Assembly (NCBI RefSeq): GCF_004362715.1
Contig: NZ_SNYC01000005.1
Coordinates: 931,781 to 995,780, forward strand
Direction of reading: 5' to 3'
DNA from: Pedobacter metabolipauper
GTDB lineage: Bacteria > Bacteroidota > Bacteroidia > Sphingobacteriales > Sphingobacteriaceae
DNA length: 64,000 bases
Shown: one piece after another, positions 33,081 to 50,457 of the stretch
How positions within the stretch are numbered: the stretch's first letter is position 1
Layout: each line of letters starts with the position of its first letter
Notes under the pieces: generated by a model
Databases searched by the model: none
Told to the model about the DNA's origin: nothing
What the model saw: the letters and a program-made list of their open reading frames with translations, nothing else
Program-made: the position numbers and the translations under genes

Positions 33081-33154
33081 GGCGGGGTAGCTCAGATGGT
33101 TAGAGCGCAGGATTCATAACCCTGAGGTCGGCAGTTCGATCCTGCTCCCCGCTA
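33081..33154 (+). tRNA. tRNA-Met (CAU anticodon)
   Basis: A 74-base cloverleaf. Acceptor GGCGGGG pairs with CCCCGCT (G1-U72 wobble); the D arm is GCTC/GAGC, the anticodon loop TTCATAA gives CAU, and the T arm GGCAG/CTGCT encloses TTCGATC. The discriminator is A and CCA is not encoded. The anticodon stem CAGGA/CCCTG has one A31-C39 mismatch. Lack of the initiator GGG/CCC anticodon stem suggests elongator Met, or an Ile(CAU) tRNA if modified to lysidine. Its 3' side is the apparent insertion site of the island. Confidence 0.95.
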
Positions 33155-33205
33155 CATAAGGAAACAACATATACAGGTTGTTTCCTTTTTTTATGCCAAT
33201 AAAAA
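33152..33205. repeat. Left copy of the island-flanking repeat (candidate attachment site)
   Basis: It runs from the last bases of tRNA-Met through its terminator. CTAC, AAGGAAACA, the 18-mer GTTTCCTTTTTTTATGCC (33180-33197) and ATAAAAAT all recur in the right copy at 48873-48926 with identical spacing. The serine recombinase gene lies about 310 bases inside this end. Confidence 0.6.
33160..33192 (+). terminator. Terminator of tRNA-Met
   Basis: GGAAACAAC (33160-33168) and GTTGTTTCC (33177-33185) are perfect 9-bp arms with an 8-base loop, followed by seven T. A diverged copy of this hairpin lies at the far end of the island. Confidence 0.9.
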
Positions 33206-33517: not shown

Positions 33518-34981
33518 TTAATCGTTTTTGTTCAACACCAGTATTTTTGATAATGCGGAGTGTAATTCCAAGGAAATTTCTCCTGTAAAGAAGTCCACCT
33601 TGGACGGAGGGATAAGCGTGATGAGATGCTTTTTATCGGGAATGTCCAACATAGCGTAATTGCCAAAAATTTCTGTAACAGATCCATGATCTAATTGACG
33701 CTTTAGATCAATATTGTTTAGCTTATCGAGCGTGTCACTAAGCTCTTTCTTGAGAATTGCAGATCTTGCCAGATATTCTTTTTTGAATTCACTATAATCG
33801 TCAAATTTAAATTCGTCTTCTACATACATTTTTCTGGCTTTAGAAAGTGTTGATTGTTGCCTTGCCAGCTCTCTTAAAAGTTCTGCTCTTTCATTCAAGC
33901 ATTCTGTCCTATTCGTATTTAGATTAACATCATCCAAAATAAGATCAAAAAGATGTATAGCTTTATTGGAAAGGACTAATTGTTGGAGTTTACGTTCATA
34001 GTTATAATTTAAGAGTACTGCGTTGATTCTCGTCCTACATCTTCCGCGGCAATGATAATATGGATATTTGTATTTTGAACCTTTGGAAAAACTTCCGCAA
34101 ACCCTTTTGCCACAAAGCGGACATACCAAAAAACCTGTTAGAAAAAATGTTGCTTTTAGCTCTTCCGATCTCCTAGAAACCCTTCTCTTTGTGTTGATGA
34201 TATCCTGCACCTTATAGAAAGTAGACACTGAGATCAAAGCTTCATGATTTCCTTTAACCATCTGCGTTTCTTCAGCATTCAGCTTCACTGGAATCAGACC
34301 GCAATAAACTGGATTACGAATAATCTTGGAAAAATTTGAAGACGAGCAGAGAAAGCCTTTATCGGCTGCCATCTTTCTAACATCCGTGATTCTGTAGATA
34401 TTTTTTGCTAACTGAAGAAAAACCCACCTGATAACACTCGCCTCAGGTTGTTTTGGTGCAATAAACTTTTTACCATCCAGTCCAGTACGGTTTACAAATC
34501 CCATCGGTGCCTTGTTTGGATGTCGCCCCATCTGCCGAGCTCTGCGCATTCCATTTGCTGTATTGAGGGCACGTCTGGTATTTTCTGCTTCCGGAACGGA
34601 TAGATAGACTGCAAGCATCACCGAACTCTCCGGAATATCGAGATCGACAGGCTGATCGATGGCCATTGCCTTGGCATTGTACTTCCGTAATATACCGATC
34701 ATCTCGTAGGCATATTGTATGTTACGACTGAACCTATCCCACTTGATGAATAAGATATTCTTTTCTTCTTTGGTACGTTCCTTTTTAACGGCCGATACAA
34801 GTTGTTTCCATTCGGGCCGATTGAAGTTCTTTGCTGAAAAGTCCTCCCTGTAAACTCCCTTAACATTTATATTATTGGAGTCACAATATTTGAGCAATCG
34901 ATCCTCTTGTTCAGGCAAGGAATAGCCCTTCCTTTTTTGTTCGTCTGTACTTACACGGACATATAGATAAGCTGATTTCAT
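33518..34981 (-). CDS. Large serine recombinase (site-specific integrase)
   Basis: The 487 residues start with a resolvase catalytic domain. The nucleophile is Ser11 in YLYVRVSTDEQKRKGYS; the arginine-containing segments FIKWDRFSRN and ENTRRALNTANGMRRARQMGR follow. A recombinase domain comes next (APMGFVNRTGLDGKKF; IIRNPVYCGLIPVKL), then a zinc beta-ribbon (CPLCGKRVCGSF...YHCRGRC) and a coiled-coil C-terminus. It is the likely integrase of the island and reads towards the tRNA-proximal end. The protein appears intact. Confidence 0.93.
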   Translation of the reverse strand: MKSAYLYVRVSTDEQKRKGYSLPEQEDRLLKYCDSNNINVKGVYREDFSAKNFNRPEWKQLVSAVKKERTKEEKNILFIKWDRFSRNIQYAYEMIGILRKYNAKAMAIDQPVDLDIPESSVMLAVYLSVPEAENTRRALNTANGMRRARQMGRHPNKAPMGFVNRTGLDGKKFIAPKQPEASVIRWVFLQLAKNIYRITDVRKMAADKGFLCSSSNFSKIIRNPVYCGLIPVKLNAEETQMVKGNHEALISVSTFYKVQDIINTKRRVSRRSEELKATFFLTGFLVCPLCGKRVCGSFSKGSKYKYPYYHCRGRCRTRINAVLLNYNYERKLQQLVLSNKAIHLFDLILDDVNLNTNRTECLNERAELLRELARQQSTLSKARKMYVEDEFKFDDYSEFKKEYLARSAILKKELSDTLDKLNNIDLKRQLDHGSVTEIFGNYAMLDIPDKKHLITLIPPSKVDFFTGEISLELHSALSKILVLNKND

Positions 34982-38369: not shown

Positions 38370-39368
38370 ATGACTCTTCTCAATTTAGTTAACATCAACA
38401 AGGGCTGGATTGACCGCGAGCTTACGAATCATTATGCAGAAAATGTAAATGATAAGCTAAAGGTCAGGCTTTTCACGATTAAAGCCTCCGGTACCACGAT
38501 TTCACCGAATTCGCTTGCGAACGCATTGCTGGATTTTCTGCCCGACTATTTCAAGACCAAAGTTGAAATCGATGCAGAAGTCAGGCGACAAATGGATGCT
38601 TTTGTCGCTGAGGGCTCCACTGCCACGGAAATTGAGATGCGCGAACAAAGCATTGCCCTGGTCCAGAACCGCACCTATCGCCAGGCCTCTAAGTTTTTTA
38701 ATAGAAAATCAGCTGACAATAAAACTGGAAAATACGGGGAGCTATTGTTGTTCGCCTGTGCAGAAGCGCTCTTCGACTGCAAGATGATCGCCCATAAGAT
38801 CACCAATATAACCAACTATCATGATGAGGTTAAAGGTGGGGATGGCATATTCCTAGGCAACTATCTGCTGAGTGATTCTACAAAGAAAGCGGCTTACTTT
38901 ATCGGAGAATCCAAAGTTTGGAAGCAATACGCTTCCGCCCAGACAGATGCTTTGAATTCGATAAACCGATTTTATGACGATGATGTACAGGCCAACTTTA
39001 CCGGACTTGAATTTTTTATTGCCAAAAAGGATATCAATAAATTCGATGATGGCCAGATCGATATCAACCAGATTTATGACCGACTAAACCCGACTTCAAG
39101 TGCTTTCAAAGATCAGGTTGCGGTGCACCCTATCTTGATCATGTATGATTCTCCGAGTTATACCAGGCTGATGACCGAGGCTGCCGACAACGTTGCCCTG
39201 GAGGCATTGATCGCGGAATCGGTCAAGGCTAAACTGCTCAGGACACTTGAGCGTGTTTCGGCAAAGGTTGGGGCTTATAAGCACCTTAATAAGGTTTATC
39301 TGGACTTCATTCTCATTCCCACCGAAAGCGTAGATGCGTTTAATAAAGCCATGGACAATCTGATTTGA
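38370..39368 (+). CDS. hamA: Hachiman defence protein HamA (DUF1837 nuclease)
   Basis: A 332-residue protein matching the DUF1837 component of Hachiman, an anti-phage system in which HamA is a nuclease held inactive by HamB. PD-(D/E)xK-type residues are visible in order: Glu124 in GKYGELLLF, Asp158 in VKGGDGIFLG, and Glu180-x-Lys182 in FIGESKVW. It overlaps hamB by one base (TGATG), and no other helicase candidate is nearby. It is noticeably GC-richer than the genes on either side. Start ATG 38370 follows a TGA, with no clear ribosome-binding site. Confidence 0.87.
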   Translation: MTLLNLVNINKGWIDRELTNHYAENVNDKLKVRLFTIKASGTTISPNSLANALLDFLPDYFKTKVEIDAEVRRQMDAFVAEGSTATEIEMREQSIALVQNRTYRQASKFFNRKSADNKTGKYGELLLFACAEALFDCKMIAHKITNITNYHDEVKGGDGIFLGNYLLSDSTKKAAYFIGESKVWKQYASAQTDALNSINRFYDDDVQANFTGLEFFIAKKDINKFDDGQIDINQIYDRLNPTSSAFKDQVAVHPILIMYDSPSYTRLMTEAADNVALEALIAESVKAKLLRTLERVSAKVGAYKHLNKVYLDFILIPTESVDAFNKAMDNLI

Positions 39369-42007
39369 TGGAAGAAAATAGTTTATATACGCAGGCTTTT
39401 GACCATCAGGATCTAAGTGCGGTCATCTCCGATTTATCGTTAAACCTCTTATCGGAACGTTTTAGCGCTATTGTCAAAACTGGTATTGATCGGGAGAAAT
39501 TAAAGAAAGCGGTATGGCTGGCCTCCGTGCTTTCGACCAGTGAAGACAATCTGCACCAGAAAAGGGCGCAGTTATTTGCCTCATTATTATTTCTGGCCTT
39601 TCAGGATGACATTGAGGTATTAAAGAGCTGTTATGTGCTTTTTTCCCGGCTGGGTAATCTGACAGGCACGAAGTTTTTAGCAAACCTGTATATTGACAGT
39701 CAGCAGACCCCGGTCGATTTGCAATCGAAGTATGCTTTCAATGATATGCTCAATCAGGAACTGCTCAGTCAGCGTGCGCGGCATATCATCAATACCTACA
39801 AAAATTCCTTTCTGGTTACTGAATTTCAAAAAGCACTCTGGACGAACCTGGGCAGCGAAAACAACCTGGCGATATCGGCGCCAACCTCTTCCGGGAAGTC
39901 ATTTATAATCAAGCAATTCCTGATCAATAAATTTCATGAGACGGGTCCCTTCAAAGCGCTTTATATCGTCCCCTCGAAGGCACTGATCAATCAGGTGAGT
40001 GAGGAATTTTATCTGGAGATTGATGAGCAGACGCATATTAAAACCTCCTATCTGGAGGAGGCGGAAAAGTTTGAAAAGGAACTGTATATTCTCACCCCTG
40101 AAAGGTGTATTAAGTTACTGGGCAGCGGGATTCCGATAACATTTATTTTCGCGGACGAAATACAGGGCGTAGAGGATCTCTCGGGCAGGGGTCTGGTCTT
40201 CGAGTATGTTTATAATGAATTGCCTATGGCCTTTCCTGAGGCTAAAATCATTACTGCGGGACCAAATATCAAGCTGCCTGAAGCGACATTTGTTGAAATT
40301 TTCGAGAAACCCTGTGCCAAAGTCGCTACCGCGGCCTCTCCCGTTTTTCAGCTTAAGGTCATCCTGAAGTTAGCGGAGCACTACAACTTTGCAGTCGAAG
40401 TCATTTCCGATAGCGGGAAGTCCAGGAAATTTATTCAGGATTTTGGTTTTAACTCCGTTTCGGTGTCGACAGAGGGTACAGCGGTCGCCAACCTGATCCA
40501 TAAGATTGCGCCTGATGACATCAATATTGTTTATACCAAAGGGGGCGCGCTGGCTGAAAACTGGGCGCTGAAGTATAGCCTGATCGCCCCTCAGCCAGAA
40601 GTCCGGGATCCCGACATCAATGAACTGATCAGTTTTTTAAAAGAAGACATTCACCGGGACTATTATCTGGCCAAATGTCTTCAGCACGGGGTCGCCTATC
40701 ATCATGGAAGTCTTCCGGATCTGGTTCGGAAGGAAATCGAGGAGCTGTTTGCCAAAGAAAAGATTCAAACGATTTTTTGTACATCGACGCTCCTTGAAGG
40801 GGTGAACCTGCCGGCCAATAACCTGTTTACGCTCCAGCCCAAAAAAGATAAATATGATCTGAGCAAATTTGAGTTCGGGAATCTGATCGGGAGAGCGGGC
40901 AGACTGAATGCCTCCCTTTACGGAACGATATATTATATCGAGCGAGCAAAGGATGATATTGCGGCCTGGGAGTATTTTAATTCCGATTACAATAAACAAA
41001 TCAGGACATTTTCCACTGCGGCACTGAACTACCTGGATATCAGCGAGCTGTCTCTGGAGATGAATGATATCCAAAAACAGGATGCCGAATCGACCTCCAG
41101 GGCCAGGCAGATAAATGTTTTCTTAAAACATAAGTTCATCAAGGGAGAAGAGGTTTTAATGAACTACCTGCAAAAACAGGATTTTACAGGAGACCGGCTG
41201 ACCCAGATCATCTCAACCCTTAATGGGCGTATGTCATCCCTTACGATTTCCAAAAAAGTTCTGGTGAATAACCCTTCGATCGACCCTTTATTACAGGATC
41301 GCCTGTATAAAACGATCATTAACGGGGACATCCGGGAATGGGTGATCAATAAAAATGCCGCTTTCAATGATTATTTAAGTTTCGCAGAGGTAGACAACAT
41401 CCCTCACCACTTTCGGCCGTTTTACCTTCAGTTTGTTGCGATCGTGGAGAAGCTGGACGCCGTATTTCAGATTGTAGAGGAGTGTAAGGTCAAGTACCAC
41501 CGTTGGATCTCACCCCGTTCGATGTGCCTGCAGGCAAAAAGATGGCTTTATGGCGACCCGATTGGAAAGATCATCAGCAGTAATATTGCCTATCTTGAAA
41601 AGAAAAACCGTCTGGATACTAGTCAGCTGGATGAGGTGAACCGGGTGATCAATGAGACCATCAAATATAATTCAACCGTTACCACACATTTGCTTCCCAA
41701 GTACGTCAAAATCTTAATTGATGTACTGGAGTCAATCCTGACCGACGGCCAAAAAGAGGAATACAAACTCACGCTTAGCCTGGCGACGATGCTGGAGCTA
41801 GGTACGCAGGAACCAGCGGTCATCAGGCTGATTTCTGCAGGCATCTCTCGAAATGTGGCTTTGAATATCTTTGACATCTATAAGAAAAAAGTTCCCAGCT
41901 ATCAAAGGGAGAATGTCGATATTTTAAACTGGTTATCCGCGCAGCATCAAGTTGAGGGCCTGAAGCCCATTTACAACCGATACCTGAAACGATTAAAACT
42001 ATTGTAA
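39368..42007 (+). CDS. hamB: Hachiman defence helicase HamB
   Basis: An 879-residue superfamily 2 helicase. Motif I APTSSGKS is at about 171-178, motif Ia LYIVPSKALINQ, motif II ADEIQ (DEIQ instead of DEAH) near 262, and motif VI LIGRAGRL after the strand-containing LEGVNLPANNLF. A long C-terminal helical region follows. In Hachiman, HamB scans DNA and releases HamA when damage or unusual DNA is met. ATG 39368 overlaps the hamA stop; an upstream TTG at 39365 would add one residue. The catalytic motifs are intact. Confidence 0.9.
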   Translation: MEENSLYTQAFDHQDLSAVISDLSLNLLSERFSAIVKTGIDREKLKKAVWLASVLSTSEDNLHQKRAQLFASLLFLAFQDDIEVLKSCYVLFSRLGNLTGTKFLANLYIDSQQTPVDLQSKYAFNDMLNQELLSQRARHIINTYKNSFLVTEFQKALWTNLGSENNLAISAPTSSGKSFIIKQFLINKFHETGPFKALYIVPSKALINQVSEEFYLEIDEQTHIKTSYLEEAEKFEKELYILTPERCIKLLGSGIPITFIFADEIQGVEDLSGRGLVFEYVYNELPMAFPEAKIITAGPNIKLPEATFVEIFEKPCAKVATAASPVFQLKVILKLAEHYNFAVEVISDSGKSRKFIQDFGFNSVSVSTEGTAVANLIHKIAPDDINIVYTKGGALAENWALKYSLIAPQPEVRDPDINELISFLKEDIHRDYYLAKCLQHGVAYHHGSLPDLVRKEIEELFAKEKIQTIFCTSTLLEGVNLPANNLFTLQPKKDKYDLSKFEFGNLIGRAGRLNASLYGTIYYIERAKDDIAAWEYFNSDYNKQIRTFSTAALNYLDISELSLEMNDIQKQDAESTSRARQINVFLKHKFIKGEEVLMNYLQKQDFTGDRLTQIISTLNGRMSSLTISKKVLVNNPSIDPLLQDRLYKTIINGDIREWVINKNAAFNDYLSFAEVDNIPHHFRPFYLQFVAIVEKLDAVFQIVEECKVKYHRWISPRSMCLQAKRWLYGDPIGKIISSNIAYLEKKNRLDTSQLDEVNRVINETIKYNSTVTTHLLPKYVKILIDVLESILTDGQKEEYKLTLSLATMLELGTQEPAVIRLISAGISRNVALNIFDIYKKKVPSYQRENVDILNWLSAQHQVEGLKPIYNRYLKRLKLL

Positions 42008-42169: not shown

Positions 42170-43633
42170 ATGATTCAAAAATTCTTTCACGCATCTTTCG
42201 ATGCGATTGACTCGCTTACTGCACCGCAAACATTAAAACTGGAAACCGATCATTATTTATTAAATGGATACGACATTTTGATCGGTAAAGCTGAAACTGG
42301 ATTTTCAGCGAAAATTAATTTTATGCCTTTCAAAGGTTATAGTTCGAGTCAGATGCACACTATCGAATTTACCGAGCCGATTAAACTTTTAAACAAGGAC
42401 AAAAATCTATTCCTGCCGGAAAAATCGATCTATCTAAACCAGTTTTTCAGAGACTTCAATAGCGACGATCCTACTATAGAAATAAAAGGCAATATTAGCC
42501 AAATTTCGACATGTGCGCAAAATACAGATTTTGATAACACATATTTAAGGCTTATTATTCCTGTGGATTCGGATGAAAAATTACGGAACGTTAGGGGCTG
42601 GGAGTTTAAAACCGATCTGAAATCGAAAAACAGAAATTTGATTAAAGTTAATATCGGAAATGCAGAATATCATTTTTTTGAGTTCCACACAGATAGCGCT
42701 GCCTATCTGGTGGTTGATACAACAGAACCTTCTAATGAAAGCGAATTTAAAAAAATCAGTCATGCTATTTTACTTGCCCAAGGTTTTCTGTATGGAAATC
42801 TGTATTTGAGCGAGGGCTATATTTTATCATCACAGTCAGCAGATTTTGCAGACATTAAGAACGTTAGTTTCTCAACGTACCGCGAATCCATCATGACAGG
42901 ATACCGCATACATACCACTAATGCCTATTCGGTACATAACATGACTGGTAAAACTGAAGAGGAAATCTCAGCGAAACAGGAGGAAGTTCAGGAATGGATC
43001 AACGACATTATAGAAATTGAAGAGTCGATATTCAGTGCACTATCCGAATTGTTTTATAATTCCGAACCCATCTCCAGGGCAGCAATTGTTACGCTCCAGG
43101 GAAACCTACTTTCGTTAGAAATCAAGGGCTCAGCCTACAGCCTTGCCCTTGAAGCAATAACTAAGGTGATAATGGATGAACACAAGGAAGATAGGCCAAA
43201 GCCTGTATCTGCTCCTATATTTAAAAAGCTTAAAGAAAAAATATATAGTGTGCTGGATGAAATTCTTCCTGAACGTCCGGAAAACGCAATAACACGTAAA
43301 ATTTTAAATGATCGTTTAAATAACTGGAACAGCCCGACAAACGCCGATAAACTGAAGAAATCTTTTCATTTTGTCGATTATGAGTTAAATGAATATGAAA
43401 TTAACGCTTTAAAAGCAAGAGACAAGTTCCAGCATGGTGAATTGCCAGTTAGTGATAATGCCGACGACGTGGTGTTCAAAGAAGTTTATTTTATGTGCTT
43501 GATTATGCACCGTCTGATATACGTCCTAATTTTAAAGCGTATAGGTTATTCCGGATATATAATCAACTATCCACAGATGCATTCGTATATCACCAAAAGG
43601 GATCTGAAAGAAAAATCGTTCTACAAACTATAA
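42170..43633 (+). CDS. ApeA-like HEPN-domain protein
   Basis: The N-terminal half (about 1-270) is strand-rich and resembles the ApeA N-terminal domain in layout (YDILIGKAETGFSAKINF, with a hydrophobic AILLAQGFLYGN near 200). The C-terminal half is helical and ends in a HEPN-type motif R417-D-K-F-Q-H422, fitting the Rx4-6H pattern of HEPN ribonucleases. ApeA-type proteins are single-gene abortive-infection factors. It lies 162 bases after hamB on the same strand but is less GC-rich, so it is probably a separate defence gene. Confidence 0.7.
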   Translation: MIQKFFHASFDAIDSLTAPQTLKLETDHYLLNGYDILIGKAETGFSAKINFMPFKGYSSSQMHTIEFTEPIKLLNKDKNLFLPEKSIYLNQFFRDFNSDDPTIEIKGNISQISTCAQNTDFDNTYLRLIIPVDSDEKLRNVRGWEFKTDLKSKNRNLIKVNIGNAEYHFFEFHTDSAAYLVVDTTEPSNESEFKKISHAILLAQGFLYGNLYLSEGYILSSQSADFADIKNVSFSTYRESIMTGYRIHTTNAYSVHNMTGKTEEEISAKQEEVQEWINDIIEIEESIFSALSELFYNSEPISRAAIVTLQGNLLSLEIKGSAYSLALEAITKVIMDEHKEDRPKPVSAPIFKKLKEKIYSVLDEILPERPENAITRKILNDRLNNWNSPTNADKLKKSFHFVDYELNEYEINALKARDKFQHGELPVSDNADDVVFKEVYFMCLIMHRLIYVLILKRIGYSGYIINYPQMHSYITKRDLKEKSFYKL

Positions 43634-44165: not shown

Positions 44166-45812
44166 CTAACTATGGGTTCTGAATAATTTCAATATCGCTA
44201 TTAGGTCTTCAAAATCCTGTAACTTTATAGTAGTCGCGCTTCCATGAGAGATGGAATTTCTTTTTTCTACCAATTGACCAATTCGTATAAGATAAGCATT
44301 GTCTTTTGAAAATTTGAAGGCCATTGTGAAAGATATCTTTCCCAGCCCCCTTCGTGCTCTCACTTTCTTATTAGAGGTCTGAATCTGAAAATTGTAGTTT
44401 ATTTCATCATGGACCATTTTATAATTAGTGCCAACCTTCATTTGAATGATTGTTCCAGTAAGGTCCATAACTTCTCCATGCGTGCCTGTAACCAACGCAT
44501 CAGTATGCTGTTCAATCGGTAAAAATAAGCTTATGAACGCCGTCTCCCACATGCCAAGCTTTAAAAGCTTAAAAAACTCATTTAGCGAATTTTGAGAGTA
44601 AGCCATAAAGCTTAAATCACTATTACCAGTCTGAGAGATAGCTTGTTCTTTTAAAGTGAAAAACTTCCTTAAATATTTCTTTTCAAAACATATCTCTACC
44701 TGTTTTTTAAAGCTTTCATAGTTTTGAAGACTTAAATTATCTGGAATAAGGTATTTAGGAGACTCTTTGATATAGTAGCCGTCAGCTCCAAGATCTATCA
44801 AATCACGCATATTCCAAGCCTTGTTGGAAGCGGTAAAAATCATAACCTGAGCACCTTCATTGATGGTTTTAATTTCTGCCAGTATCTTTGTCCCGCTATA
44901 ATAGCCGATTGGATGAACAGTTCCTGCAATATCTTCTTTCCAAGGTAGTAAACGTAAATCCAGTAAGATCAGATCCCATTCTAAATTAATTTGAGCACGA
45001 ATGTCTGCCATAAAATTAGCTTCGGAAAGATTATTACCAGTAAGGGGAACAACAGTTGCCCTATTAAAAATTTTGGTCAAGGCTTGAACCCAGCCTTTAT
45101 CACCCTCATCATCAATATAAAGGATTTTTTTCCCGGCAGCAGGTATTAGGTTAGGTGTAGATGTTACATTATCCGCCACTGAAGCGGCTGTTCGGCTTCT
45201 GTTAACACTTAAAAGATATTTAAAATATAGAGAAGGCTTACGCTGTAAGGCAGGAGTAGAAGCCGTTAAAGATCCTAAGTTAGCAATCTTATCGAGCTGT
45301 ATAACACCCCACTCGTTTGCCATAGAATGAGGCCCGATGGTTTCGGGGCCTTTTATAATTACGTTGTCTAAAACCTTATTTTTAAATTCAGATTTGGAAA
45401 TAGGCGTAGTAAAATTTAAGTGAGCTTTAATCTCTGTGGAATCTAAAGGGGCCAATACGCTCCCTTCTGTAGCCGCGATAAGTGCATACCGATTACTTTG
45501 GTTTATCAGTAGGGTTTCAAGTGAGCTGTCAGAAATTAGAATGATGGGAATCAGGTTATCCTCTCCAATCCGTTCGCTGAGGCGGATATGCAGTGCAATT
45601 CTCAGTCCCAACTCATTATTGCCACCTTCTCCAAGGGAAACGGGGACTATCAGTTTTTTGATTGAATTCTGTGCGAAAATTCTCGCAACGTAATCATCAA
45701 TTTCTTTATCTGTGCGAAGGTCTACATATTCGATCGGGGATACGCCAATTTCGTGTGTGATCTTTTTGCTAAAAGGGTTATTATCGTCATCAAGAATAAA
45801 TGCTCCGTCCAT
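44166..45812 (-). CDS. Receiver-domain and HEPN-domain protein (candidate effector of RT operon)
   Basis: A 548-residue protein with three parts. Residues 1-150 form an alpha/beta domain (KKLIVPVSLGEGG, LIPIILISDSS), itself receiver-like. Residues 225-355 form a receiver domain with an intact quartet: Asp234-Asp235 in LYIDDE, Asp285 in LILLDLR, Thr327 in IFTASN and Lys349 in YYIKES. The C-terminus (about 400-545) is helical and carries R518-N-S-I-S-H523, a canonical HEPN RNase motif (RNxxxH). It would be an RNase effector under receiver control. Its start overlaps the preceding receiver gene by 23 bases. Confidence 0.75.
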   Translation of the reverse strand: MDGAFILDDDNNPFSKKITHEIGVSPIEYVDLRTDKEIDDYVARIFAQNSIKKLIVPVSLGEGGNNELGLRIALHIRLSERIGEDNLIPIILISDSSLETLLINQSNRYALIAATEGSVLAPLDSTEIKAHLNFTTPISKSEFKNKVLDNVIIKGPETIGPHSMANEWGVIQLDKIANLGSLTASTPALQRKPSLYFKYLLSVNRSRTAASVADNVTSTPNLIPAAGKKILYIDDEGDKGWVQALTKIFNRATVVPLTGNNLSEANFMADIRAQINLEWDLILLDLRLLPWKEDIAGTVHPIGYYSGTKILAEIKTINEGAQVMIFTASNKAWNMRDLIDLGADGYYIKESPKYLIPDNLSLQNYESFKKQVEICFEKKYLRKFFTLKEQAISQTGNSDLSFMAYSQNSLNEFFKLLKLGMWETAFISLFLPIEQHTDALVTGTHGEVMDLTGTIIQMKVGTNYKMVHDEINYNFQIQTSNKKVRARRGLGKISFTMAFKFSKDNAYLIRIGQLVEKRNSISHGSATTIKLQDFEDLIAILKLFRTHS

Positions 45813-46455
45813 ATCTTACATAAAATTTAATAATCTTGTCAAGTAAATTTATATAGCTGCGCCCGTCGAGGTCTGCAAATTGCTTTTTGAGCTCTTCTCC
45901 GGACTCTGAAATTGTAGAAAATTTTTCGACCAAATCTATCGCATCCTTTCGAGCGATCTCCATTCCATGAACTGCAATAAAGTTAGCGATCTGTGCATGC
46001 AAGTCTTCGAGTTCCCGATGTTTAAAGTTCTTGCCATAGGCTAGGATTTTGAGCTGAATTTCGCCAATCGTTTTGTAATGTAAAATGAAATCTTCAAGGT
46101 TTGTATAGAAAAGCCTTTTATTAAGTCCAGTAATTTCTTTTTGTTTAATTTCTCCCTGTTCGAAGCCAGTGAAACTATTGCTGAATAATACAAGAGGACA
46201 CTTGTCTATTCTTGCTCCATCCTTGATGTTTTCGGCGACTTTGGTGCTGCCTTGTAAAATTTCACCAGCGGAATTGAAATCGGGAAAGGAATCATGAAGC
46301 AAAATGCATGCGGCAGATTTTAACATACTAAAATCATCACTTTCGCTGCGTCTGTTCCAAACAGTAAGCACATCACTATAAGTACCATCGGCAATATAGT
46401 TGCAACCATACTCACGCTGCTGTTCACGTCTGTTATCATCAATTAGGTAGATCAT
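45790..46455 (-). CDS. Receiver-like protein, 221 aa, linking RT and HEPN genes
   Basis: The N-terminal 120 residues have the receiver layout: Asp6-Asp7 in IYLIDDNR, Asp55 in CILLHDSF, Ser92 in VLFSNSF and Lys113 in NKRLFY, so the usual acid pocket, phosphoacceptor, Ser/Thr and Lys positions are occupied. Helices continue to the end (LEDLHAQIANFIAVHGMEI; SYINLLDKIIKFYVRYG). The ATG overlaps the RT stop (TGATG), and its 3' end overlaps the next gene by 23 bases, so translation is tightly coupled. No histidine kinase gene is nearby. Confidence 0.7.
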   Translation of the reverse strand: MIYLIDDNRREQQREYGCNYIADGTYSDVLTVWNRRSESDDFSMLKSAACILLHDSFPDFNSAGEILQGSTKVAENIKDGARIDKCPLVLFSNSFTGFEQGEIKQKEITGLNKRLFYTNLEDFILHYKTIGEIQLKILAYGKNFKHRELEDLHAQIANFIAVHGMEIARKDAIDLVEKFSTISESGEELKKQFADLDGRSYINLLDKIIKFYVRYGRSIYS

Positions 46456-48521
46456 CAGTAGAATCTTAATAAATGTGTAAATCCCGAAATGAGCTCTTTG
46501 TTGACCGGTCTTTTTTGGGAGAGTTTTTCCTTGTCGCTGAGCATATCAACTTCAAAATCTCCATCAGCAAAACTAGCTCTAACTGCCCAGTTGCAAAGTC
46601 CATGAAAAAGCTTTAACGCATCTGAGAAATTACCGTTAAGTAACTCTTTAGGAAGCGCATTTTTATAACATCTAGAACCGACGTGCGTAATCTCCAGAAC
46701 TTTCATAAGACTGCCGTTGACTTCTTGTTTACTGAAAGCAATATGGATAGTTTTTGAAATCCCAATTCGCTCAAGTATCCCATCTAAGAGATGCCTGACG
46801 CCGCTTAAAACCAGTTCAACATCTGTATAGAATTCAGCGGCTTCCAAATTTGAATAATCAATCTGTAACTCATCATAATCCTCTCCAAATTTTTCCCGGA
46901 CCGTGCTTTCAATGCGATTGCGTAAAGCGGGTGGTCGAAATTGTATACTTTCTTTAAAGGGTCTGATTAAATTGTCCCGTATTAGTTTTGAGCGAATCGG
47001 GTGGGTTCCAGGATTTAGGCGTACCCATTCTTTTATTTGCTTTGAACTCCAACCAATATTAATTTCTATACGTTTGCCATCTTCATACTTCCACCAGTTT
47101 GGTTCTTCTTCGAACGCGAATTGATAAACTCTAGCGTATAATTGTTTGGTGATGTAATTTTCTTTAACGCCTCTGAAAAAATCTCTGACTGCATACATCA
47201 TTATCCTATCGTAATCAAACACCGCATCAACCATATCAAAATCATGAGTAAGATATTTAAGTCCATCACTGTCTTGAAAAAACCTTAAAAATCTTGCTAA
47301 ATCTTTTGGTCGATGTTCGCTGAAATCACCCTTGTGCGTTGACGATGACTTCTGTTTTTTTTCAGCAAAACGCTTATTGGCTAATTTTTTAAAACGCTTG
47401 GAGAGTTTAAGATATGTAGGATGATTTTCTCCAGTAACCATTTTCATATAATTCAGCCTGCCATCGAGGGTCGAATGTAATGTCGATTCCATCTCCTTAT
47501 CAGAAATCAAGCTACGGTCATTGAAAAATTTTATTTCAGCCTCGTGGTAACCATACTTTTCCCAATAGTATATATACATACGCAGAGGCTTAAGATATTC
47601 CCTTTTAACGTTAGTCTTTTCGTTTACGACGATTCCAGTAACCTCTTGACGGGCGCTTTTGCCTAAAAGTCGGGTTTTAGATTCGTTGATTTGGAAGCCC
47701 TGTTCTGAAATAATCCTCACAAGTTCAATTAAGAAAGCAGAGCCTTCCTCAAAAACGTTATTATTACCTGAAAACGTAATATCATCAGCATAGCGCGTGT
47801 AAACCAATTGGTTTGCCTTGGCAAGTGATTCAAGTAAATTGTCTAGGTTTTGGCAAACGGCATTAGAGAGTAAAGGCGAGGTTGGGGCCCCTTGAGGTAA
47901 TATAAATTTACGGGAGGAATTTCGTATCCCTTTCTTCAATGGCGCTCTCATAGTACAAAGTCCAGAGAGATGTTCTGCGATACTTTTTCGCTCTCCAGAG
48001 AGGTTAAATGGAGGACGCATTAATGCTTCTTTAACCATCTCACTATCAATAGAAGGAAAAAAGTCTTTCAAATCTATGTTAAATACATACTTTTTGCCCA
48101 CATGTACTACAGCGTTGGAAACTACAGATGAACCTTTCTTAAAACCATGTGAACATTGATGTCCTTGAAAAACACAGGAAAGAAGAAAGTTAATGAGCCG
48201 ATGGATAAGCATAAGCTCTTCAGAGGGTGCGCTGATGTGGCGGTATCTTCCAGAACGCTTTTTTATAGAAAAATTACTATAGGTTGGGCTATCTTCGCCA
48301 ATTTCGAATTGACTCAAAATCTGGCAGCAGTATGTCTGACCAAGATCATTTATATCTAGCAAACTCACCAGATGCACTAAGATCTGATAAAATTCCTGTT
48401 GCGAAGCACAGGCATGAAACTTGCTGGCGACTTCCTGCCGCTGTTCCTGGGTTATCTGCTTTAGTGGATCTTTCAAATTAGTAAAAGGATGGGGACTAGC
48501 GAATTCAATATAGTAAGTCAA
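46455..48521 (-). CDS. Retron-type reverse transcriptase with long C-terminal extension
   Basis: The RT domain (about 70-380) shows the retron region-X motif NAVVH at 136-140, FNIDLKDFFPSI at 147-158, QGAPTSP at 210-216, the catalytic YADD at 244-247 and the region-Y VTG motif at 294-296, then a thumb with DGRLNYMKMV. Catalytic residues are intact. About 300 residues follow with no domain I can name; the segment at 560-665 (LLSGVRHLLDGILERI-like pattern, then KTIHIAFS and VLEITHVG) has a faint ATPase/kinase look. Start is TTG 48519-48521, directly after an in-frame TAG 15 bases upstream. It leads the receiver and receiver-HEPN genes. Confidence 0.88.
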   Translation of the reverse strand: MTYYIEFASPHPFTNLKDPLKQITQEQRQEVASKFHACASQQEFYQILVHLVSLLDINDLGQTYCCQILSQFEIGEDSPTYSNFSIKKRSGRYRHISAPSEELMLIHRLINFLLSCVFQGHQCSHGFKKGSSVVSNAVVHVGKKYVFNIDLKDFFPSIDSEMVKEALMRPPFNLSGERKSIAEHLSGLCTMRAPLKKGIRNSSRKFILPQGAPTSPLLSNAVCQNLDNLLESLAKANQLVYTRYADDITFSGNNNVFEEGSAFLIELVRIISEQGFQINESKTRLLGKSARQEVTGIVVNEKTNVKREYLKPLRMYIYYWEKYGYHEAEIKFFNDRSLISDKEMESTLHSTLDGRLNYMKMVTGENHPTYLKLSKRFKKLANKRFAEKKQKSSSTHKGDFSEHRPKDLARFLRFFQDSDGLKYLTHDFDMVDAVFDYDRIMMYAVRDFFRGVKENYITKQLYARVYQFAFEEEPNWWKYEDGKRIEINIGWSSKQIKEWVRLNPGTHPIRSKLIRDNLIRPFKESIQFRPPALRNRIESTVREKFGEDYDELQIDYSNLEAAEFYTDVELVLSGVRHLLDGILERIGISKTIHIAFSKQEVNGSLMKVLEITHVGSRCYKNALPKELLNGNFSDALKLFHGLCNWAVRASFADGDFEVDMLSDKEKLSQKRPVNKELISGFTHLLRFY

Positions 48522-48544
48522 GATATAACCAGATTTCTATCTCA

Positions 48545-48650
48545 TTATAAAGTGAACATTTCCCCTGGCCATAAGGCCCGGTGAATGTGCCGATCATTGG
48601 CCGCAGAACGGCCCAGCACAGGATCAATTTCTTTGCTGTCCCTATCCATT
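48545..48650 (-). ncRNA. Candidate structured RNA (possible retron msr-msd) upstream of the RT
   Basis: Just upstream of the RT start the DNA becomes GC-richer and shows nested inverted repeats. GGCCG/CGGCC (48599-48603/48609-48613) has a 5-base loop, enclosed by TGTGC/GCACA (48586-48590/48616-48620). GGCC/GGCC (48567-48570/48575-48578) has a 4-base loop, enclosed by ACATT/AATGT (48556-48560/48584-48588). Retron RTs are preceded by such RNAs on the same strand. A 34-codon minus-strand frame also runs through it, so a coding remnant remains possible. Confidence 0.4.
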
Positions 48651-48872
48651 CCAAATATAACATTTCATAACTAAATACAACAGAAAGCATCCAAAAATCA
48701 TTTTAAACGACATGTCTACTCCCGCCATAGCTTATCATCAACCCGATTATGAAAAACACTTACAATAATTTCTTTTTCCTGTACTGCCCCTCAACTCTGT
48801 TCTTCAACACTTTTTCAAAATTTACAATCGCTTCACAATGCTCATAAAAGTTCGACATATTGCCGCTCGACT

Positions 48873-48926
48873 CTACTAAAGGAAACATCAATAACATGGT
48901 GTTTCCTTTTTTTATGCCTATAAAAA
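48873..48926. repeat. Right copy of the island-flanking repeat (candidate attachment site)
   Basis: It shares CTAC, AAGGAAACA (48879-48887), the exact 18-mer GTTTCCTTTTTTTATGCC (48901-48918) and ATAAAAAT with the copy behind tRNA-Met at the same relative spacing. It retains a GGAAACA/TGTTTCC hairpin with a T run. The bases just upstream (TTCGA..., CGCTCGACTCTAC) loosely resemble a tRNA 3' end. Confidence 0.6.
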
Positions 48927-49062: not shown

Positions 49063-50457
49063 ATGAAAAAGGTTAGAAATCATACCGAGAACTTGTTAGC
49101 AATAATAAATTCTTATCCTAACGGCATCAACATCAATGAGGTTGCCAAAGCATTCACCAAAGGCATTTCTACTCGTAGTTTACAGCGCTTATTATTAAAA
49201 CTAAGCAATGAGGGACGTATCATGATTAATGGTGCGGCACGCAGCACAAAATATCACCCAATAATAAAAGAAGAAGAAAGACAGGAAATAGGAGTAGCAG
49301 AGCCGGCTGCTAAATTTATCCGCCCGGCACCCCGTATCATTCCGCTATCTGATAAAGGTAAATATGCACTCACGCGCATTAGCACTCCCATTCAACAGCG
49401 AATACCAGTGGGCTATCAGCAGAACTTTTTAAAATCCTATCAACCCAATATTGACAGTTATCTTTCTGGCGAAGAAAAGAAGCATTTAGCTGCATTAGGA
49501 AATACTGGCATTGACAGGCCTGCGGGAACCTATGTACAACAGATTTTGAATCGGCTGCTGATCGACCTCTCCTGGAACTCAAGCAGGTTGGAAGGTAATA
49601 CGTATAGCTTACTGGATACTGAAAGACTCATTTTGCAGGGACAGGCAGACGATAGCAAATCTGCAAAAGAAGCACAAATGATCCTTAACCATAAAGATGC
49701 CATAGAGTTCATTGTGCAAGCTGCCCAAGACATTGGATTTAACCGATATACTTTTCTGAATCTTCATGCTATGCTGGCCAATAATCTTCTTACAGATTTG
49801 GAGGCCCCGGGCAGATTAAGGTCAATGGCGGTTGGCATAACAGGCTCTACCTATATCCCTCTTGCCATTCCCCAACTAATCGGTGAATACTTTGATCTTA
49901 TACTGGAAAAGGCCAAACAGATCGAAAACCCATTTGAACAATCATTCTTTCTGATGGTGCATTTGCCCTACCTGCAGCCATTCGATGATGTAAATAAAAG
50001 GGTATCAAGACTTGCAGCCAATATTCCTTTGATAAAACAAAATCTTTCCCCACTATCCTTCATCGATGTTCCGGAAGATCTATATTTCAAGGGAATGATG
50101 GCGGTATATGAACACAATGATATCAATCTCTTGAAAGAAGTTTTTCTATGGGCCTATGAACGATCTGCGCAAAAATATGCTGTGATCAGGCAGTCCATCG
50201 GAGAACCTGACATCTTCAAGCTAAAGTACCGTGATTCCATTAGAAACCTCATTACAACAATTATTATTAATGAATTGGATTCAAAAGATGCGCAAAAAAG
50301 AATAAAAATTAATGTTGAGGAACTACCTAAAGAGGATCGGGAGCAGTTTATCTCATCTGTTGAAACCGAACTCATGGCAATACACGAAGGAAATTTCGCA
50401 AGATATAGGGTCAGTCAGCGGGAATTTTTTAACTGGCAGAAAATTTGGAACACTTAA
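49063..50457 (+). CDS. Fic family protein with N-terminal winged helix
   Basis: A 464-residue protein. Residues 1-60 form a winged-helix-like domain (INEVAKAFTKGISTRSLQRLL, then a GRIMIN wing), followed by a Fic_N region and a Fic core at about 220-330. The active-site loop reads QPFDDVNKR at 305-313 where HPFxDGNGR is usual, so the catalytic His position is Gln305. An inhibitory-type motif SSRLEG is at 173-178. Activity as an AMP transferase is therefore doubtful. The N-terminal domain is a good candidate to bind the palindromes at 48979-49054 (autoregulation). Confidence 0.88.
   Translation: MKKVRNHTENLLAIINSYPNGININEVAKAFTKGISTRSLQRLLLKLSNEGRIMINGAARSTKYHPIIKEEERQEIGVAEPAAKFIRPAPRIIPLSDKGKYALTRISTPIQQRIPVGYQQNFLKSYQPNIDSYLSGEEKKHLAALGNTGIDRPAGTYVQQILNRLLIDLSWNSSRLEGNTYSLLDTERLILQGQADDSKSAKEAQMILNHKDAIEFIVQAAQDIGFNRYTFLNLHAMLANNLLTDLEAPGRLRSMAVGITGSTYIPLAIPQLIGEYFDLILEKAKQIENPFEQSFFLMVHLPYLQPFDDVNKRVSRLAANIPLIKQNLSPLSFIDVPEDLYFKGMMAVYEHNDINLLKEVFLWAYERSAQKYAVIRQSIGEPDIFKLKYRDSIRNLITTIIINELDSKDAQKRIKINVEELPKEDREQFISSVETELMAIHEGNFARYRVSQREFFNWQKIWNT

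Follow-up and report, generated by a model that had tools for sequence, protein, structure and literature searches.

Retrons are bacterial phage-defense elements that guard effectors such as nucleases, TIR domains, and Toprim domains, and their RT-DNA (msDNA) carries a 2'-5' linkage. As described in PMC6868368, the noncoding RNA (ncRNA) of a retron lies upstream of the reverse transcriptase (RT) on the same strand and has complementary 5' and 3' ends; its msr part forms one to three hairpins, and its msd part forms a single long hairpin of about 10 to 50 bp. The same paper places the guanosine used for priming at the inner end of the a1 stem, mostly within TAGC and sometimes within a variant of it, and names YxDD, NAxxH (region X), and VTG (region Y) as motifs of the retron RT. 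The described systems closest to the locus reported here, as judged by RT models, are types XI (RT-protease), XII (RT-TIR), and I-C (RT-Toprim, Ec67/Eco2), all of which likewise carry a fused C-terminal domain; Eco2 (type I-C) has the closest RT fold.

The window that we analyzed is a 64,000-nt stretch of Pedobacter metabolipauper (assembly GCF_004362715.1, contig NZ_SNYC01000005.1, positions 931,781 to 995,780 of the forward strand). On its minus strand lies an operon that is best read as a retron variant with new cargo, namely, an RT-fused HisKin-conflict domain, a 221-aa protein, and an iREC-REC-HEPN-like protein. The complementary-ended ncRNA is a feature in common with retrons as outlined in PMC6868368. 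Compared with types XI, XII, and I-C, the RT ends in PF22561 rather than in a protease, TIR, or Toprim domain, further genes follow downstream, and the candidate priming motif is TTGA. Judging from its sequence and that of its relatives, the element at 48482 to 48653 (minus strand) is very probably the msr-msd template RNA of this retron, and this identity is consistent across every sequence test that could be run.

An RT accompanied by the kinase-like gene, the third gene, or both was found in at least 43 distinct loci. This set comprises 44 loci from local profile searches of genomes, plasmids, and contigs, minus two duplicates (L001, which is the window, and L004, which equals L095), plus L167; it is a lower bound, as the contig scan behind it covered the best 80 matches. 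Local profiles recognized the kinase-like domain in 39 of the 44 listed loci; the counts for the second and third genes were 33 and 42, respectively. The kinase is fused to the RT in some loci and encoded separately in others. A search with PF22561 that was not guided by the RT gave four matches in 295 genomes of the class, including that of the window, each next to an RT and the third gene, and no match in 14 control genomes. Searching 399 genomes for the conserved core as an exact DNA pattern, which proved too strict, retrieved only the window.

The RT fusion (RT-HK; 673 aa) is encoded at 46455 to 48476 (minus strand) with a TTG start, an assignment that draws on matches to RVT_1 and to PF22561 at the C terminus (314.5 bits against a cutoff of 27), on the starts of relatives, and on the predicted fold. 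Its motifs read NAVVH, VTG, and YADD; across the kinase-type RTs (n = 43, window included), NAxxH is present in 41, VTG in 39, and YxDD in 43. The nearest RT models in PADLOC are those of type XI (E = 4e-98), type XII (5e-91), and type I-C (9e-82). The predicted structure has a mean pLDDT of 85.1 and a pTM of 0.55, so that the relative placement of its domains is unsure. Its RT fold matches retron RTs best (Eco2: Z, 24.9; rmsd, 4.5; 321 residues), compared with a Z of 17.1 for DRT2 (rmsd, 6.4; 300 residues). The RT start had been placed at 48521. In L002, L033, and L167, the RT begins right after the complementary 3' end of the RNA (a2), with a GTG or TTG equivalent to the TTG at 48476 in the window. 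This TTG is most likely the start here as well, and 48521 thus looks like an artifact of calling the longest open reading frame (ORF), a call within which the 3' end of the RNA falls. For L050, L003, L104, L055, L078, and L100, in which the longest ORF covers a2, the RT start was shifted to a downstream ATG.

An active histidine kinase has a phospho-acceptor His and ATP-binding N and G boxes, a receiver domain has an acidic pair, a phospho-acceptor Asp, a Thr or Ser, and a Lys, and HEPN ribonucleases have an Rx4-6H motif. The C-terminal part of RT-HK, which the structure search barely tested, aligns to the hybrid response regulator LvrB (8vc9; Z, 12.6; rmsd, 2.6; 135 residues), where Z values below 8, or below 13 for helical bundles, count as middling. 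The second gene (45790 to 46455, minus strand) encodes the 221-aa protein, for which no Pfam family was found. The third gene (44166 to 45812, minus strand) encodes a 548-aa protein, the presumed ribonuclease effector, whose iREC domain (PF22563) scores above the Pfam cutoff. Its matches to Response_reg (19.4 bits, cutoff 30.2) and to HEPN PF18735 (23.5 bits, cutoff 28.4, in a region that the structure search barely tested) fall below theirs. The model of this protein (mean pLDDT, 85.2) has a receiver fold at residues 226 to 384 that matches 2qr3 (Z, 12.3; rmsd, 2.2; 118 residues). In an alignment covering 39 of the 43 loci (A7), D235, D285, T/S327, and K349 are kept in 39/39 sequences, as are R518 and H523 of the Rx4H motif. 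No solved structure with sequence similarity to either the kinase-like domain or the third protein was found.

HisKin-conflict and iREC are, to our knowledge, known only as Pfam domains; both score well above their Pfam cutoffs in this operon, where, in contrast to the Pfam entries, they are linked to a retron RT and an ncRNA. The LvrB alignment and the receiver fold and residues of the third protein recall two-component systems and hybrid response regulators. In this case, the input would be an RT with its RNA, and the output a HEPN-like domain in place of a DNA-binding one. Searched alone, the HisKin domain had no PADLOC match up to an E value of 1, and neither the second nor the third protein had a PADLOC match. 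The retron effector set is without a match in the PADLOC defense library.

At the effector step, the kinase-like domain could be a catalytically dead scaffold, with the receiver and HEPN parts released by conformation alone and no phosphotransfer, an arrangement that would be compatible with a retron. No conserved Asn was seen at the expected N-box position in the alignment of the kinase-like domain (A8, 36 of the 43 loci), and iREC is by its Pfam name an inactive receiver. On the other hand, H411 of the kinase-like domain is invariant (36/36 aligned), and its constancy, like that of D285, T/S327, and K349, is as expected if phosphorylation matters. We regard the scaffold reading as quite possible, at somewhat below an even chance, while a phosphorelay onto HEPN as such comes close to, but falls short of, an even chance in our estimation.

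The template RNA spans approximately 172 nt from a1 to a2, and its extent is drawn from the fold, a covariance-model match, and covariation (all RNA features are on the minus strand). Just 5' of a1, at 48652 to 48659, lies a promoter-like element, TATATTTG. This fits TAnnTTTG, which we take to be a Bacteroidota-type -7 promoter element and which occurs near a1 (from up to 60 nt before the region to 14 nt into it) in 28 of 41 loci, compared with 33 of 740 background windows. The a1 end, GGATAGGGACAGC (48635 to 48647), pairs in the predicted fold with a2, GCTAGTCCCCATCC (48487 to 48500), and has equivalents in relatives; a2 is further supported by a covariance-model match and by covariation, and its end is 10 nt from the RT start codon. 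Between these ends follow an inner stem strand, AAATT, that leads into an invariant TTGA (48623 to 48630), hairpin 1 of the msr with a conserved bulge motif (48586 to 48620), hairpin 2 (GGCC/GGCC, 48556 to 48588, from the window fold and the consensus of four sequences), and an AU-rich 3' stretch (48501 to 48555). The last is presumed to be the reverse-transcribed template (msd) and varies in length and sequence among relatives. Thus, the msr has two hairpins, of which hairpin 1 covaries, and the msd shows no long hairpin; it forms a weak, interrupted one that is poorly kept in three relatives.

The original prediction placed a candidate template RNA at 48545 to 48650. That interval lies within the element but is too short, with a2 and the 3' part missing. 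Both of its nested hairpins (TGTGC/GCACA around GGCCG/CGGCC and ACATT/AATGT around GGCC/GGCC) are present in the sequence. They are partly mutually exclusive, as proposed: the outer ACATT strand of hairpin 2 overlaps the last bases of GCACA in hairpin 1, so the two outer stems compete. The interval is also richer in GC than its surroundings: its G+C of 0.50 compares with 0.39 for the RT gene and 0.32 for the 400-base stretch upstream of the whole element. Folded by itself, it stands out only slightly (z, -1.99; matched by 6 of 200 shuffles), whereas the element at 48482 to 48653 has a folding energy of -58.2 kcal/mol (z, -3.32; matched by 1 of 200). The proposed fit of position and strand to a retron msr-msd agrees with the complementary ends, the hairpins, the covariation, and the RT family. 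Within the window, the a1/a2 complementarity is no better than chance (25.6, compared with a mean of 25.4 and a maximum of 39.6 for 20 random sequences of like dinucleotide makeup); it is relatives that supply the support for a1/a2. Rfam gave no match at the RNA site, either at gathering thresholds or at E values up to 10, and three weak matches elsewhere.

In L002, L033, and L167, the region before the RT has the layout a1, AAATTGA, hairpin 1, hairpin 2, AU-rich stretch, a2, and start codon. The 43 loci provided 41 ncRNA regions; the remaining two are L076, whose contig ends at the RT, and L053, at which the ncRNA was not recognized (1 of 42 loci examined). For 21 of 42 loci, the best complementarity score exceeded that of every one of the 20 random sequences, and in L070, L066, and L100 the best complementary pair differed from the adopted a1/a2. 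Six loci (L043, L045, L060, L073, L078, and L111) have a different first hairpin, GTCCGA...GTCGG, but in them TTGA is retained and the a1/a2 ends are long.

A covariance model built from L002, L033, and L167 with the window excluded (R1) matched the window at 48485 to 48648 (minus strand; 53.3 bits, E = 9.1e-11), with a runner-up at 11.5 bits. Over the whole genome, R1 gave two matches, of which the retron site was the best and the other scored 23.8 bits. In 38 further, more distant loci, it retrieved 19 matches (E up to 1), 17 of them directly before an RT, in 17 loci. A second model, from the 5' half of 17 distant kinase-type relatives (R2), ranked the retron site first in the window by a narrow margin (20.0 bits, E = 0.067, versus 19.1 bits at an unrelated spot) and for this reason was not relied on there.

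Covariation was scored in a sequence-based alignment (A6) of 33 of the 41 ncRNA regions, window included. Left out were poorly aligning regions of the Bacteroidales type (L043, L045, L051, L060, L073, L078, and L111) and L092. The helices scored were the outer and inner a1/a2 helices and the lower part of hairpin 1, with the structure taken from L050 and L104. Paired cells amounted to 89.4%, compared with 68.3% after shuffling, where the a1 starts had been set in each locus from a common motif or from complementarity, a procedure that favors pairing of the ends. The covariance analysis across homologous loci that the original prediction had proposed as a check came out in its favor. Of 20 pairs, 17 showed changes on both sides. 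The covariation score was 0.510, versus 0.175 for shuffled alignments (0/500 shuffles) and at most 0.124 for slid versions; relatedness alone can beat shuffles, less so for the pair count, and is preserved in the slid control. The lower stem of hairpin 1 is paired in 95.2% of cells, with four of five pairs changed on both sides, and in the inner helix two pairs fail in 20/33 and 14/33 sequences.

Directly after the inner stem, TTGA is invariant in A6 (33/33) and visible in the 41 ncRNA regions. From its position, G48625 within this motif is the best candidate for the priming guanosine. A TAGC-like motif is present as CAGC in the window and is absent from L002, L033, and L167. That TTGA occupies the position of the TAGC-like motif, and that the msd is without a long hairpin, would also fit an RNA that is reverse transcribed by nonclassical priming, such as the protein priming of some DRT systems; the system would then be retron-like rather than a retron. 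The NAxxH and VTG motifs of the RT, the better match to retron folds than to DRT2, and the resemblance of the a1/a2 ends to those of retrons make this improbable.

A quick RT tree (109 of 132 rows, with long branches and with the TIR reference dropped as too short) clusters the 43 kinase-type RTs, with 10 label changes compared with a shuffled mean of 34.0. RTs closely related to them also occur without the kinase. When 44 such kinase-less loci were searched with R2, a match was found before the RT in 14 (12 at E <0.01; best, L099 at 97.8 bits; L058 and L096 were weaker), and 2 of 19 matches lay away from the pre-RT position. Because R2 finds matches before kinase-less RTs, the RNA apparently accompanies the RT rather than the effector. 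One of these loci, L105 (7014 to 11662), combines a close relative of these RTs and a matching ncRNA with TOTE-type conflict genes after the RT, whereas the window has the kinase/receiver/HEPN set in their place, an apparent exchange of effectors behind one RT/ncRNA cassette. In other sister loci that lack the kinase, the genes downstream are similar in size.

The same matches bear on the reading of the element as a regulatory leader or attenuator of the RT operon, structured but not reverse transcribed. Its location between the promoter-like element and the RT start, with a2 so near the start codon, would suit such a role, but a related RNA precedes RTs that have no kinase-like gene, and the paired ends with an invariant TTGA at their junction fit RT priming; we consider a leader very unlikely. 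Least credible is a coding remnant, a short peptide gene or its decayed end, which the original prediction had raised on account of a 34-codon frame. A 61-aa ORF exists, and in the window, in L002, and in L033 an open frame with similar residues runs through the segment, but in L167 it is interrupted. Substitutions relative to the window are spread evenly over codon positions (14/16/12, 11/13/12, and 14/15/12) without an excess at the third, and alignment gaps measure 1, 2, and 3 bases. The protein-level conservation of the frame that would have told against the original prediction was not seen; the stems covary, and the similar residues are attributed to conserved RNA motifs.

Several features of the neighborhood deserve mention. 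A 19-bp direct repeat (33179 to 33197 and 48900 to 48918) is the sole 19-mer in the window that recurs more than 5 kb apart. Its first copy lies just after a tRNA gene (33081 to 33154), within a terminator-like hairpin, and its second copy lies near the retron. The two copies bracket an ORF that reads as recombinase-like (33518 to 34981) as well as defense genes and are likely the ends of an integrated island. A Hachiman pair, HamA and HamB (38370 to 42007, plus strand), is found near the retron, and between HamB and the retron operon is a gene for a 487-aa protein (42170 to 43633, plus strand) with a weak Apea-like HEPN match below the Pfam cutoff. A Fic-domain protein (49063 to 50457, plus strand) is encoded just beyond the presumed island end.

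From the RNA structure, the retron-type RT, the association of the genes, and the intact receiver and Rx4H residues, we infer how a transcript, RT-DNA, a priming site, phosphotransfer, and a role in defense may be connected. A promoter just 5' of a1 would give one transcript that runs from the ncRNA through RT-HK and the 221-aa gene to the iREC-REC-HEPN gene. The RNA would fold with a1 paired to a2 and two hairpins between them, and the RT would bind it, prime at a guanosine at the inner end of the a1/a2 stem (48625 being the best candidate), and copy the AU-rich part into RT-DNA. As long as no phage disturbs it, the complex of RT-DNA, RNA, and RT would hold the fused kinase-like domain in check. 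The freed domain would then drive the receiver of the third protein, directly or via the 221-aa protein, and the receiver would unleash the HEPN ribonuclease, whereupon growth would stop.

We tentatively propose, with a little less than even confidence, that this locus represents a new retron type in which an RT-DNA sensor controls a phosphorelay-like chain, the RT and ncRNA form an exchangeable cassette with TOTE among its effectors, and priming occurs at TTGA instead of TAGC. Such a system is not known from the main retron classification. Among the papers listed in a literature search, none was recognized as describing a retron with a histidine kinase or receiver module; these papers included PMC6868368, PMC12548924, PMC7159879, PMC8195603, PMC13092281, and PMC8934634. 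Now that the ncRNA is delimited and the RT start revised, the system can be put to the test, and it may find use in RT-DNA technology for Bacteroidota. If the proposal is correct, one RT-DNA sensor would trigger a separate enzyme by signaling, instead of by direct sequestration.
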